Assembly: GCA_020356065.1 (NCBI GenBank)
Contig: CP070632.1
Coordinates: 135,744-199,743, forward strand
Reading direction: 5' to 3'
DNA: 64,000 bases
Source: Nitrospiraceae bacterium
Lineage (GTDB): Bacteria > Nitrospirota > Thermodesulfovibrionia > UBA6902
The first letter of the stretch is position 1, and each line of letters begins with the position of its first letter. A model generated the notes under the pieces. That model ran no database searches. It had not been told where the DNA came from and was given only the letters and a program-made list of their open reading frames with translations. This document shows positions 57,548-62,875 of the stretch, piece by piece. The position numbers were made by a program, and so were the translations under genes.

Positions 57548-57985
57548 TTATTTGATATTTAAAGACAATTCTTCAGGGTTCTGCGAACTGTGCGGATGGT
57601 CGGCTCCGCGATATACTTTTAATTTTTTGAACTGCTGTCTTCCAAGCGTGTTTTTTGGAAGCATGCCACGGACCGCGGAATAGATTATTCTTTCAGGAGA
57701 TTCTTTCATAATATCCCTGGCCGTTTTTGATTTTAAACCGCCGGGATACCCTGAATGACGGTAATATGTCTTTTTCTCAAGTTTATTTCCCGTAAACCTG
57801 ATTTTTTCCACATTTATTATCACAACATAATCACCGGTATCTACATGTGGGGTAAAAATAGGTTTGTTTTTGCCCCTTATTATTGACGCAACTCGTGCAG
57901 CCAGCCTCCCTACTGCCAGCCCGTCAGCATCTATCACATGCCACTTCCTGATAACATCCGTATTTTTTGCTGATTTTGTTTTCAT
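57548..57985 (-). CDS. rplM: Ribosomal protein uL13
   Basis: 145 residues. [27 protein letters not shown] and [22 protein letters not shown] are universal uL13 signatures. Begins the rplM-rpsI unit; the small UGA-containing gene lies 117 nt upstream on the same strand. Confidence 0.98.
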
Positions 57986-58101: not shown

Positions 58102-58287
58102 TTAAACCCTGTCACAGGAACGGTGAGAAAGTTTTTCCCAGAAATTCATATCAAGCTCGTCTACATATTCATCAATTGAATATTTATTGCTGCATTCCAT
58201 GCAGCGCAGTGTAACGCCCCTTCAACCGATTTTCAATTCCAGTTTACCGCTACATTTCCTGCATTTCATGGATGATCTTGTACTCAT
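58102..58287 (-). CDS. Dual-CxxC small selenoprotein, UGA at codon 22
   Basis: A 62-codon frame with a strong GGAGG site 9 nt before the ATG at 58287. Two zinc-type pairs, CRKC (9-12) and CMEC (29-32), flank an in-frame TGA at 58222-58224 (codon 22); the frame then runs through NKYSIDEYVDELD...SHRSC to a TAA. I recall a family named dual CXXC motif small (seleno)protein, whose members carry Cys or Sec at this position just before an R-x-V-x-x-RC stretch (here U-RGVTLRC). A 7-bp hairpin with loop GGA begins 16 nt after the TGA, loop at 23 nt. Inference: UGA encodes Sec; 61-residue product. Function unknown, probably redox or metal. Confidence 0.75.
58189..58205 (-). promoter_or_regulatory. Candidate bacterial SECIS hairpin
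   Basis: On the minus strand GCTGCAT pairs with ATGCAGC around the loop GGA. The first loop G is 24 nt after the UGA, inside the 16-37 nt window of bacterial SECIS models, and G at the first loop position fits. It lies in coding sequence, as bacterial SECIS elements do. Confidence 0.5.
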
Positions 58288-58635
58288 GAATAAAAACCTC
58301 CCATTTCCAGTTTCATATAGTATAGACCAATTGCATTTAAAAGTTAATTTTTCTGAAGTGGCATTGGCTTCTGAGATATTCCCATTTGAAAATTCATGCC
58401 TTCGACCGCTGGCGGGTGATGTACTTTGGCAATTAAATTGCATATAAATCGTTAGAATTATTTCTATACATTTCAATTTAATTTATATATATTTATGGTT
58501 GACAAATTATATATAATTAGGCATTTATTTTATTATGAATCTCTCTGAAATTATATTCCGGAAAGAGATTCATCTCATTTTTTATTGTGCATTAATAACA
58601 TCAAGGCCATTAATCAGTGAAAAGGATAGAATGAT
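58288..58635. other. Divergent intergenic region
   Basis: Between the small UGA-containing gene (minus) and the histidine kinase (plus). Very AT-rich from 58440 to 58540, where promoters for both directions probably lie; TTGACA occurs at 58499 on the plus strand but the best -10 (TATAAT at 58512) is only 7 nt away, so no promoter is called. Contains the hairpin at 58537. Confidence 0.4.
58537..58583 (+). terminator. Terminator/attenuator-like hairpin ahead of the kinase gene
   Basis: GAATCTCT (58537-58544) pairs with AGAGATTC (58564-58571) around a 19-nt loop, followed by ATCTCATTTTTT. It precedes the kinase ATG by about 50 nt on the same strand, so it could attenuate transcription or end a short RNA. 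Confidence 0.45.
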
Positions 58636-60765
58636 ATGAGTATTAGTCAGCACCATTCAGTCGCTTTGCTGATCTCATCTGCTTCATTTTTACTGTTGGG
58701 CCTGTTTGTTCTTTTTAAAGCTCCCCGCAAGCATATACATAAGGTTTTTTCATTTTACGCACTGTGTGTTGTCCTGTGGAGCTCTGGGCAGGCATACCTC
58801 AGCAGCACCACCAGTTCTGCCGGGTATATGATCGCCATTGTTCTTCTCACGTCAGGAACCATTTTCATTGCTCCGGCCTTTGTCCATTTCATATGTTCAT
58901 TACTCAGGCTTCGTAGATTAAAGAGCAGACTGCTGACCGCGCTTTACGTAATCAGCTGTTTCCTTCTGCTTGCGGTCACACCTGCATTGATTAAACCAGG
59001 CAGTAAGATAATGAGCTTCAGTATGAGCAGCTATCTTTTTTTCACAACCATTTTTTTCTGGACAGGCTGTGTTGTTTACGGATTTATTCTCCTATTAAAG
59101 TCATATGTTCGCTCAACAGGCTTGAGAAGAAAACAGTTGACGTTACTGGTAACAGGATCGCTTCTCGGATACTCTGGCGGGACGACAAACCTGCTTAACA
59201 CTCTGGGTCCTGATAGTTTCCCGATTAGTCCTTTTGCCACATACGCTGTTCCGCTATATGGGGGCATCATTGCGTATGCCATATTCCGCTATCGTTTTTT
59301 AGGGATTAATATTCCTCTGAAAAGGGGTATGGCATATTCCTTTTCAGCAGGCCTTCTAATGGGACTTTTTGTCATACTGGTCTTATCAATAACTAATACA
59401 CTGTCGGTGTATACGAAGGTTGACTCGTTTAAAATCAGTCTTTTGTCTGCCGGTATTATTGCATTTCTTTTTAATCCTCTCAGGAACCGGATTCAGGTAT
59501 TAATTGATAAAATATTCTATAAGAAGACGTATAACTATTACTCCATTCTTAAGAAAATCAATGCCAGACTTTCTTCAATATTTGACCTGAAGGAGATTTG
59601 TGACATCATCGGGAATGAGGTCTGTGCTGTCATGGGCTTAAGGAACATGTATGTACTGTCATACGTTCCGAAAGCAGGTTACAGGGTGATAAGCAGATCA
59701 TCTATAAAACCCTCCATGAGAAAAGAATGCAAGGAAGGCGGGGATATTCATGCCAATGGCCTGAATCCTGATCAGTCACTGGACATAGCACGATACTGGC
59801 TTAATTCCAGAGATATTATTTTAAACGGTGAACAGTCCGGTCTGGCCGGATATATTGCACCTGAACAACTGGAGAGCATTCACCTTGCATTCAAGCTATT
59901 TAACGGGGAGGTAATGGTCCCTGTAATGATAGACAATAAACCTTCCTTTCTTCTCATGATCGGCGAGAAAATGTCCTGTGAATTTTTCACTAGAGAGGAT
60001 ATTTCTCTGCTGGGTACAATATCGGAGCAGATGGCTGTTGCAGTGAAACATTCAGAACTATACAAGGACAAGGTGCATTCAGAAAGGCTGGCATCTATTG
60101 GCATGATGTCAGCCACATTTGCGCATGAAATCCGAAATCCTCTCACTTCATTAAAAACGTTTGCCCAGCTTATGCCAGAAAAATATAATGACAGTGAATT
60201 CAGAGATACCTTTTCAAAAATCGTTGAGGGAGAAATTGAAAAAATAGATCGCCTTATTAAAGACCTGCTTGACTTTTCCATTCATAAACAGGCATCGCGT
60301 ATTGACCATTTCAATATTGTGTCTCTGGTAGATGAGACCATTGACTATGTTAAAGAGAAGGCCCCTGATAATATGAAAAGCATAACTGTACAGAAAAAAT
60401 ATAATGAGAGTGAAATACTCATGACAGGCGATGCATCCAAACTTAACCAGGCGTTTGTAAATATAATAACAAACGGATATCAGGCAATGCACGGCGAAGG
60501 GCAGCTGATTGTTGATATCAATCCAAAAGGGAAAAATGTGGAAGTTGTCATATCCGATACGGGAGAAGGTATAGAACCTGAGAGTATGGACAGAATATTC
60601 GATCCTTTCGTGACCTCCAAAGAGATGGGCATCGGTCTTGGTCTGGCCATCAGTAAACGAATTATTGAAGACCATAACGGAGAGTTGCATGTAATAAGTT
60701 CTGTATCGGAAGGTACGAGCTTCACGATCACACTCCCTGTACAGAATGGTTCACAAATATTATAA
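58636..60765 (+). CDS. Seven-helix sensor histidine kinase with GAF domain
   Basis: 709 residues. The N-terminal third (about 1-290) has eight or nine hydrophobic segments, including the HK_7TM-type region YAIFRYRFLGINIPLKRGMAYSFSAG. A GAF-like region follows (about 310-470), then HisKA with phospho-His497 (AHEIRNPLTSLKTFAQLMPE) and a complete HATPase (FVNIITNGYQAMHG, SDTGEGIEPES, GIGLGLAIS). AAGGA site 9 nt before the ATG. Probably phosphorylates the HD-GYP regulator two genes downstream. The signal is unknown; it resembles PrsK-type kinases only loosely. Confidence 0.88.
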   Translation: MSISQHHSVALLISSASFLLLGLFVLFKAPRKHIHKVFSFYALCVVLWSSGQAYLSSTTSSAGYMIAIVLLTSGTIFIAPAFVHFICSLLRLRRLKSRLLTALYVISCFLLLAVTPALIKPGSKIMSFSMSSYLFFTTIFFWTGCVVYGFILLLKSYVRSTGLRRKQLTLLVTGSLLGYSGGTTNLLNTLGPDSFPISPFATYAVPLYGGIIAYAIFRYRFLGINIPLKRGMAYSFSAGLLMGLFVILVLSITNTLSVYTKVDSFKISLLSAGIIAFLFNPLRNRIQVLIDKIFYKKTYNYYSILKKINARLSSIFDLKEICDIIGNEVCAVMGLRNMYVLSYVPKAGYRVISRSSIKPSMRKECKEGGDIHANGLNPDQSLDIARYWLNSRDIILNGEQSGLAGYIAPEQLESIHLAFKLFNGEVMVPVMIDNKPSFLLMIGEKMSCEFFTREDISLLGTISEQMAVAVKHSELYKDKVHSERLASIGMMSATFAHEIRNPLTSLKTFAQLMPEKYNDSEFRDTFSKIVEGEIEKIDRLIKDLLDFSIHKQASRIDHFNIVSLVDETIDYVKEKAPDNMKSITVQKKYNESEILMTGDASKLNQAFVNIITNGYQAMHGEGQLIVDINPKGKNVEVVISDTGEGIEPESMDRIFDPFVTSKEMGIGLGLAISKRIIEDHNGELHVISSVSEGTSFTITLPVQNGSQIL

Positions 60766-60838: not shown

Positions 60839-62875
60839 ATGGAGTTACTGGCATTATTAAGCAAAAACGAGAAAATGATTCTCGAGGTCAAAGCTGCCCT
60901 CAAAAAGTATACAGTCTATCCTCTAAAAACACTGGATGAACTGGAAGATCTTAACAGCAATATACCTCTTAACCTGGTTCTTATGGACACTGACTGCCTT
61001 GGCTTGACTGAGCTGAGGGAATTCCTCGACCGGTTTGATGATGGCATGGCCGTCATTATTACCCGTGATAATATCAGATGTGATGTTCTCAATCTGCCAA
61101 ATAGTGTAATCAGCAGTATTTCAGCGGGGGCCACAGGGGATTCATTTCTTATGAGTGTTGAGAAAGCACTTGAAAAACAGAAACTCAGGCGCAGATTAAA
61201 ATTATTGAAACAGTCAGGCAGATCCATCCCCCCCTCATATGATCAGGGGTTCGGTGTACAAAAACCGGACAGGTCGGCCGACGTTTCTGAACCACTGACG
61301 ACCGGCAGAGTAATTCACGAAAAAATAATAGTTAACTTTGCGAGGATGTTGACTGCCAGTTTTGACATGAGAAAGCTCCTTGACACCTTTATGGATTCAG
61401 TCATGGAAATAGCCAGGGTAAGCAGGATGTCCGTCCTGCTCAGGAACAAACAGGGATTTTATGTAAAAACCCACTACGGCCTGGACCCCTATATAGCAGA
61501 CAACATGAGAATCTCAAGGGACAGTGCACTTGTTTCCTGGCTCGCAAAGACGGGAAGGATTATTCATAAACCGGCAAACTTTGTCGATTCTTCCGATGTT
61601 GATGTCAGCAGTGACATGGAAGCCCTGCAATGCACCGTTTCATTTCCCATGATATACAAGGGTAAGTTAATCGGTATATTTAACATAGACAGCAAGGTGA
61701 CTGAGGAACCCTTTCATAAAGAAGAACTGGAAATGATATATGTGCTGTGCAACTATCTGGCTGCTGCTGTAAAGGATATCGATGTGTATCATCAGATGTG
61801 GTATCAGAAAGAGTTTACAAAAAACATCTTATTGAGCATGAACAGCGGAATGATAGCAATTGACAGAGATGAAGCAATCACTTTTTTTAATAAACAGGCT
61901 TCAGAAATTCTTGCCATCGATGCTGAGAACATGATAGGGAAAAACACGAGGGCTCTGCCCTACCCTTTGGGAGATATTCTTTTGAGAACCATGGTGGCCG
62001 GAACATCATACAGCAGGTACGAAGTGGAGATGGCCACCGGGGAACTAACTCTTGGCATCAACAGTTACCGGTTACAGGATGAACACAATATCCCTACAGG
62101 TGCCGGCATTATTTTTTCAGACATATCTGATTCAAAAAAACTGGCTGAACAGAACAACAGGACAGCGAAACTTGAGGCGGTTAATAATCTGGTGGCAAAA
62201 ATTGCTCATGAGGTCCGAAATCCCCTTACATCCATTCAGACATATATACAACTTCTGAGCGACAAGCTTACTGATGATGATCTTCATAACTTCTATCTCT
62301 CAACAGTCAGAGACTCAATTAATAAACTCACGGGTCTCATTGACAAGCTGGTGAGCTTCTCAAGTTCTGAAAACTACAATATGAAGCATTATGATGTGAA
62401 TGTCTTTATTAATGAATCCTTTGAATTTCTCTTAAGAAACCTTCCCGTATCTCACAGGTTGTCAAAAATATTATCCGATACTCATCTGACCATCAATATT
62501 GATAAACGTCAGATGCTAAAAGCCATATATTATATTATTTTAAACATCATTGATATGACCCCCGAGGGAACCCTGATTCGGATCGGCACATACGGTACTA
62601 AACCGGAAGAACCTTTCCTGGAAATATCCATTGAATTCACTCAGACAGGCACAGCCGTCAAGGATAAGAAAGCATTGTTAAAACCGTTACTTGATATAGA
62701 ACATCTCGGGACAGAACTGAACATCCCGATCAGTCATAAAATTATTGAAGCACATGAGGGCAGTCTTGATTTACGGTCATTTGATAAATTGCATTCCTTT
62801 ATCATTAAATTACCTCTTGTAGAGCGGAGAGACGCTCAGGTTTCTTCTGAAGAAGGATGGGTACGTGGACAATAA
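60839..62875 (+). CDS. Receiver-like/GAF/PAS histidine-kinase-like protein with degenerate ATPase domain
   Basis: 678 residues. N-terminal receiver-like fold (about 1-120; LVLMDTDCLGL but no acidic pair), GAF (about 160-310), PAS (about 325-440), and HisKA with His457 in AHEVRNPLTSIQTYIQLL. The ATPase domain retains the N-box area (LNIIDMTPEG) but lacks the DxGxG motif (FTQTGTAV there) and GxGLGL (replaced by HLGTELNIPIS). It is soluble. Autophosphorylation from ATP is therefore doubtful; it may be a phosphotransfer or regulatory partner of the complete kinase upstream. Overlaps the next gene by 11 nt. Confidence 0.82.
   Translation: MELLALLSKNEKMILEVKAALKKYTVYPLKTLDELEDLNSNIPLNLVLMDTDCLGLTELREFLDRFDDGMAVIITRDNIRCDVLNLPNSVISSISAGATGDSFLMSVEKALEKQKLRRRLKLLKQSGRSIPPSYDQGFGVQKPDRSADVSEPLTTGRVIHEKIIVNFARMLTASFDMRKLLDTFMDSVMEIARVSRMSVLLRNKQGFYVKTHYGLDPYIADNMRISRDSALVSWLAKTGRIIHKPANFVDSSDVDVSSDMEALQCTVSFPMIYKGKLIGIFNIDSKVTEEPFHKEELEMIYVLCNYLAAAVKDIDVYHQMWYQKEFTKNILLSMNSGMIAIDRDEAITFFNKQASEILAIDAENMIGKNTRALPYPLGDILLRTMVAGTSYSRYEVEMATGELTLGINSYRLQDEHNIPTGAGIIFSDISDSKKLAEQNNRTAKLEAVNNLVAKIAHEVRNPLTSIQTYIQLLSDKLTDDDLHNFYLSTVRDSINKLTGLIDKLVSFSSSENYNMKHYDVNVFINESFEFLLRNLPVSHRLSKILSDTHLTINIDKRQMLKAIYYIILNIIDMTPEGTLIRIGTYGTKPEEPFLEISIEFTQTGTAVKDKKALLKPLLDIEHLGTELNIPISHKIIEAHEGSLDLRSFDKLHSFIIKLPLVERRDAQVSSEEGWVRGQ

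Follow-up and report, generated by a model that had tools for sequence, protein, structure and literature searches.

The gene described here occupies positions 58102..58287 on the minus strand of the window, the whole stretch of 64,000 nucleotides that was analysed. Its 61 codons and TAA stop, established by translation, NCBIfam score and a whole-genome scan, are confirmed on sequence grounds as a real gene and a new member of a known, functionally uncharacterised selenoprotein family, NF041197 (also CxxC_Se_CxxC, OS_HP3 or hypothetical protein DW), in which UGA codon 22 is very probably read as selenocysteine. This high confidence applies to the assignment as a selenoprotein gene and does not extend to the mechanism proposed for its product. 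Selenium insertion is what we infer from the sequence, its conservation and the presence of the machinery genes. Because the family has already been described, the finding, though correct, holds no great surprise, and its use lies in annotation. Frame-based annotation is likely to miss or mis-call the gene, both in this genome and in more than a hundred relatives.

The sole interruption of the reading frame, marked by both the translation and the homologous genes, is an in-frame TGA at 58222..58224 (minus strand), the putative Sec22. Reading through it from 58287 to 58102 on the minus strand yields the product MSTRSSMKCRKCSGKLELKIGURGVTLRCMECSNKYSIDEYVDELDMNFWEKLSHRSCDRV*, whose translation places one CxxC motif ahead of the TGA, at residues 9-12 (58252..58263, minus strand), and a second one beyond it, at residues 29-32 (58192..58203, minus strand), the codons of the latter forming much of the SECIS stem-loop. 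The sequence also contains a ribosome binding site, GGGAGG (58297..58302, minus strand), 9 nt before the ATG. An initial annotation, made from the letters and a list of open reading frames, had already pointed to a strong ribosome site and to CxxC motifs on either side of the TGA, both of which are borne out, and had located the gene at its present coordinates without naming a strand; the location stands, and the strand to be added is the minus one. A plus-strand reading of 58102-58287 was considered and rejected, as its translation makes no sense. The scan for promoters and terminators yielded no clear signal above chance. The expectation that frame callers would either miss the gene or call a longer frame that the TGA terminates was also well founded: without read-through, the frame list contains an 84-aa frame (58476..58222) that ends at the TGA, plus a 32-aa fragment beyond it. 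This pair of frames is at the same time an argument for taking the TGA as a true stop, in which case there would be a pseudogene or a pair of small, independent frames, and it is against this reading that the evidence from the family has to be weighed.

At 62 bits and an E-value of 4.3e-17, the read-through product exceeds the curated cut-off of 40 bits for NCBIfam NF041197.2, the 'dual CXXC motif small (seleno)protein'. The match spans residues 9-61 and positions 1-53 of the 53 in the profile, and the segment past the TGA scores 28.8 bits by itself. The initial annotation had proposed membership in this very family and an HMM search of the 61-residue product, and had described the sequence past the TGA as coding-like; the family match across the TGA and the conservation of the downstream part agree with it on each of these points. 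A DNA scan of the whole genome recovered the same gene as a single copy, with 53.1 bits and one TGA inside. The closest relatives that bear a name are Thermodesulfovibrionia (Nitrospirota) assembled from metagenomes, at 84 and 80% identity. Family matches are present in 48 of 61 genomes of near relatives, with exactly one TGA in all 48, and in 152 of the 395 genomes of the phylum as against none of 14 control genomes. The Cys residues of both CxxC motifs are invariant in 40 of 40 aligned rows (the first Cys of the first motif is lost in locus L098), and the same 40 of 40 holds past the TGA for Y41, W50 and R56, a degree of conservation that argues against a true stop. So does the prevalence of silent changes in the post-TGA part, which differs from the two nearest relatives by 10 and 12 silent and by 5 and 4 non-silent changes. 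Beyond NF041197, a Pfam search of the protein gave nothing over the cut-off, phage and plasmid records held no relative of the gene, and solved structures searched by sequence offered nothing convincing.

The most direct evidence on codon 22 comes from its reading at base level in 90 distinct homologous genes, where it is TGA in 84, Cys in six (four TGT and two TGC) and anything else in none. These genes derive from 94 family loci (L001, L024-L076 and L088-L127), comprising the 50 best-scoring returned, four from the search for relatives and 40 hand-picked for spread across families; L073, L074 and L106 were left out for encoding the same protein as others, and L127 for being a contig-end fragment, which also has TGA at residue 22. 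The base-level set is a part of the phylum matches listed, which do not reach down to the weakest ones. The UGA form is the rule in Nitrospirota members of the family, and across many families of the phylum the TGA occupies an unchanged alignment column, where it alternates with Cys alone, a pattern that weighs heavily against a true stop. The initial annotation had suggested an alignment of homologues for a Cys at this position. Homologues do align across the TGA, none of them carries an unrelated residue there, and the proposal of Sec22 is supported by the homologues together with the family match and the Sec machinery genes.

The Cys form seems to have arisen more than once. On a tree built without the residue-22 column, the Cys label needs four changes, three of which are forced by well supported branches, in a tree that is itself weak because it has 52 columns for 90 rows. 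Three of the Cys genomes (G234, G282 and G284) have no selA or selB match, and three (G215, G277 and G366) match both; G215 (locus L111) contains two selB genes besides its Cys-form gene. The Cys gene of G234 (L126, with a TGC codon) keeps a perfect SECIS hairpin of -8.2 kcal/mol, and likely represents, to judge from this one gene, a recent change from Sec to Cys. With three to four Sec/Cys switches, the 84 UGA and six Cys genes, including this Cys gene still endowed with its hairpin, make up a natural series for the loss and retention of Sec.

Sequence, folding and covariation point to a SECIS-type hairpin at 58189..58205 (minus strand), GCTGCAT-GGA-ATGCAGC, with a 7-bp stem and a GGA loop at 58196-58198. 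The hairpin and its GGA loop had been noticed initially and placed 23 nt downstream of the TGA; both are upheld, and the 23 nt are those to the loop, the stem itself beginning after 16 nt. Bacterial SECIS elements are described as having a loop of 3-9 nt, a stem of 4-16 bp and a G in the first two loop positions, at 16-37 nt from the UGA and with at most -7.5 kcal/mol, in the accessible text of a recent review (PMC13188914). The window hairpin (loop of 3 nt, 7 bp, 23 nt, -8.3 kcal/mol) lies within these limits, and 59 of the 84 UGA family genes attain the energy limit with an unbroken stem.

Synonymous recoding was chosen as the null model because the hairpin is also coding sequence. With kinship ignored, hairpin energy across the 84 UGA genes averages -8.8 kcal/mol versus -2.5 kcal/mol in the recodings, the lowest mean among 200 replicate recoded sets being -3.0 kcal/mol, and 74 of the 84 genes, again without regard to kinship, fall in the best 5% of their own recodings; for the window gene, just 1 in 100 recodings folds equally well. 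Stem-forming Cys codons are TGC in 160 of 168 cases, as compared with 131 of 241 for Cys codons elsewhere in these genes, kinship again being ignored. The pair that closes the stem, 23-27, obeys Watson-Crick rules in 49 of the 84 genes (T-A in 26, C-G in 18, G-C in four and A-T in one), against a mean of 26 and a maximum of 39 in 2000 shuffles that ignore kinship. It is non-standard in 28 of the 84 genes (17 of them T-T), where the loop has 5 nt. Of the six Cys genes, five have a weaker hairpin or none at all. Folded alone and compared with dinucleotide shuffles, the downstream RNA is unremarkable (z from -0.3 to -1.9), and hence the evidence for the hairpin rests on comparison between species; Rfam had no match on the window. 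The counts at codon 22, the conservation past the TGA and these hairpin energies refute in the main, as far as sequence evidence goes, the reading of the TGA as a true stop, which we consider exceedingly improbable.

The genome also possesses the protein-coding genes that selenocysteine decoding would call for, with profile matches to selA (630 bits), selB (353 bits) and selD (329 bits). The selD gene (C1:1606201-1607112, minus strand; L022 / L017) has an in-frame TGA of its own, within GGUAAKLG, and is likely to be itself a selenoprotein gene. Of tRNA-Sec the assembly holds a 5' part at C1:2032116 (L128:1501-1554), 52 nt of which are 92% identical to the tRNA-Sec of a relative and include the region of the TCA anticodon, the gene being broken after about 55 nt by 100 N. 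The search of the genome with RF01852 (tRNA-Sec), in which 150 of 206 candidates were scored, gave no match over the cut-off, and seven matches below it were discarded because ARAGORN identifies them as other tRNAs. Neither Rfam nor ARAGORN made a call on the selA-selB stretch or on the partial tRNA-Sec. Another run of 100 N directly follows selB (L021 near 10855), and in two relatives (G008 and G039) the contig with the selA match also carries tRNA-Sec, 2.7-3.1 kb further on; this run was considered as the site of the missing tRNA-Sec and dropped when the 5' part was found elsewhere. A tRNA-Sec match near 70 bits was obtained in six of the 13 genomes searched. The check for Sec machinery that the initial annotation had recommended thus finds selA, selB and selD present, and tRNA-Sec as a 5' part before the run of N.

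It is the incomplete state of tRNA-Sec in the assembly that lends some weight to the idea that UGA is read as another amino acid, be it Trp or, via a different tRNA, Cys. The presence of selA, selB and a Sec-type selD, the fit of the hairpin to the SECIS model and the tRNA fragment with its TCA anticodon region nonetheless argue for selenocysteine. Moreover, TGA ends nine of the 30 long frames in the window, and its use there as an ordinary stop implies that there is no global recoding. We therefore hold decoding as another amino acid to be hardly credible, and selenocysteine remains the preferred reading of codon 22.

The distribution of the family in the phylum can be set against that of the machinery. 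In the 395 genomes, with kinship ignored, the family and selA occur together in 141, the family without selA in 11, selA without the family in 33 and neither in 210. The family follows selA in the phylum, since selA is matched in 141 of 152 family genomes and in 33 of the 243 others. Three of the 11 family genomes without a selA match have the Cys form and eight the UGA form. Among these eight, selB is present in three, so that selA is probably missing from the draft, and the other five (G005, G096, G193, G259 and G410) have no match to selB either. UGA-form genes in genomes without selA and selB matches are the other observation in favour of a true stop, and the completeness of G193 is 99%; they may reflect either gaps in the drafts or decaying genes.

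The genomic context of the gene had been described initially as just upstream of rplM, and a family search does identify rplM (L13) as the next gene downstream, on the same strand (57985..57548, minus strand), with S9 (rpsI) following it, also on the same strand. Two histidine kinases (58636-60765 and 60839-62875, plus strand) are divergent from the selenoprotein gene. Apart from the window, the L13-S9 pair lies downstream in 24 of 89 loci, and further neighbours among these loci, many of which span just 1.5 kb per side, are argC (23), a YacP-type NYN gene (12), S20 (seven) and, upstream, aspS (six). Two unnamed Cys-cluster proteins recur nearby, in 10 loci each, and their representatives had no family match in Pfam or NCBIfam. 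One of the Cys-cluster genes follows the selenoprotein gene, with ends overlapping or nearly touching, in ten loci (L031, L040, L056, L071, L072, L099, L100, L105, L117 and L122). The neighbourhood changes by lineage, and hence no partner is indicated.

The mechanism that we favour would begin with SelB carrying Sec-tRNA-Sec, which would decode UGA at codon 22 as selenocysteine under the direction of the stem-loop located 17 to 33 nt past the UGA, the same bases encoding the second CxxC region. The product would fold as a zinc ribbon, in which two CxxC knuckles and their four Cys hold one metal ion, and Sec22, rather than binding the metal, would be exposed where strand 15-20 turns into strand 25-29, at the far tip of the primary hairpin. 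The structure model, of medium confidence (mean pLDDT 70, pTM 0.49), predicts strands at 15-20, 25-29 and 35-37 followed by two helices, with residues past about 47 poorly modelled. Foldseek found no significant match (best E 0.31) and neither did structural comparison (best Z 3.9), so that the zinc ribbon is only weakly suggested; the top structural matches are mostly chains of RNA polymerases, topoisomerase I, eIF2 beta, Trm112 and the ATCase regulatory chain, which we take to be zinc ribbons. On the strength of this model, we put the chances of a zinc ribbon with an exposed, non-ligand Sec22 at its turn at about even. Chemically, the selenolate of such a small redox protein might attack a peroxide, a disulfide or a soft-metal ligand, and thiols would regenerate it. 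Cys58, often present (74 of the 84 UGA genes), could assist, but is not essential, as it is missing in the remaining 10. The scheme assigns the selenol a position that can be tested, in a family as yet uncharacterised.

The same selenoprotein can also be conceived with Sec22 taking part in the metal site, as ligand or as redox partner, the protein then binding or buffering a metal (zinc, mercury) or selenium instead of acting as a thiol-redox catalyst. Four invariant Cys and one Sec within 53 residues are consistent with such a role, as is the Cys-cluster gene that closely follows in ten loci. The model spacing, however, would put Sec22 in a turn away from the knuckles, and the recurring neighbours to which a name could be given include no gene for metal resistance or for transport. 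We deem this role possible but unlikely, and retain the exposed Sec22 of the ribbon as our working model. A more specific proposal is that the ribbon tip with its Sec docks on the transcription or translation machinery, for redox sensing or redox action. Other ribbons of these machines work by their hairpin tips. The nearest folds, which are ribbons found in subunits of RNA polymerase and in translation factors, point weakly in this direction, as do the translation genes (rplM-rpsI, rpsT and aspS) that adjoin the gene in several separate lineages. Yet many ribbons occur in such machines, and housekeeping genes are frequent neighbours as well; docking appears improbable.

Compared with known zinc ribbons (RPB9, the topoisomerase I ribbon, Trm112 and the ATCase regulatory chain), the predicted product would share the two CxxC knuckles on a beta hairpin, but differs in having no significant sequence or fold match to them. 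To our knowledge, none of these families has a Sec in its hairpin turn. As regards NF041197 itself, the accessible text of the review lists it under two names, OS_HP3 and hypothetical protein DW, without a function, and gives its Sec motif as RxU and GxU (PMC13188914). The deep-Sep study reports Desulfosarcina to have 'DW', for which it describes homologues with Cys and with TGA as well as SECIS-like structures, while one OS_HP3 escaped it (PMC12013277); OS_HP3 is also listed elsewhere (PMC9312934). Nitrospirae figure in the accessible parts of three papers through a tRNA-Sec overlapping selB (PMC13188914, PMC9312934, PMC8124441). A search by title or abstract, with most subscription journals outside its reach, returned no paper treating the family in Nitrospirota. 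The window gene has in common with NF041197 / OS_HP3 / DW a profile score over the cut-off, the two CxxC motifs and a Sec between them at the same place, but its motif, IGUR, departs from the RxU and GxU given for published members. Finally, the seleno-examples in the accessible text of these sources stem from the Olavius symbiont study and from Desulfosarcina (PMC13188914, PMC12013277), whereas the gene analysed here belongs to the Thermodesulfovibrionia, in the Nitrospirota.
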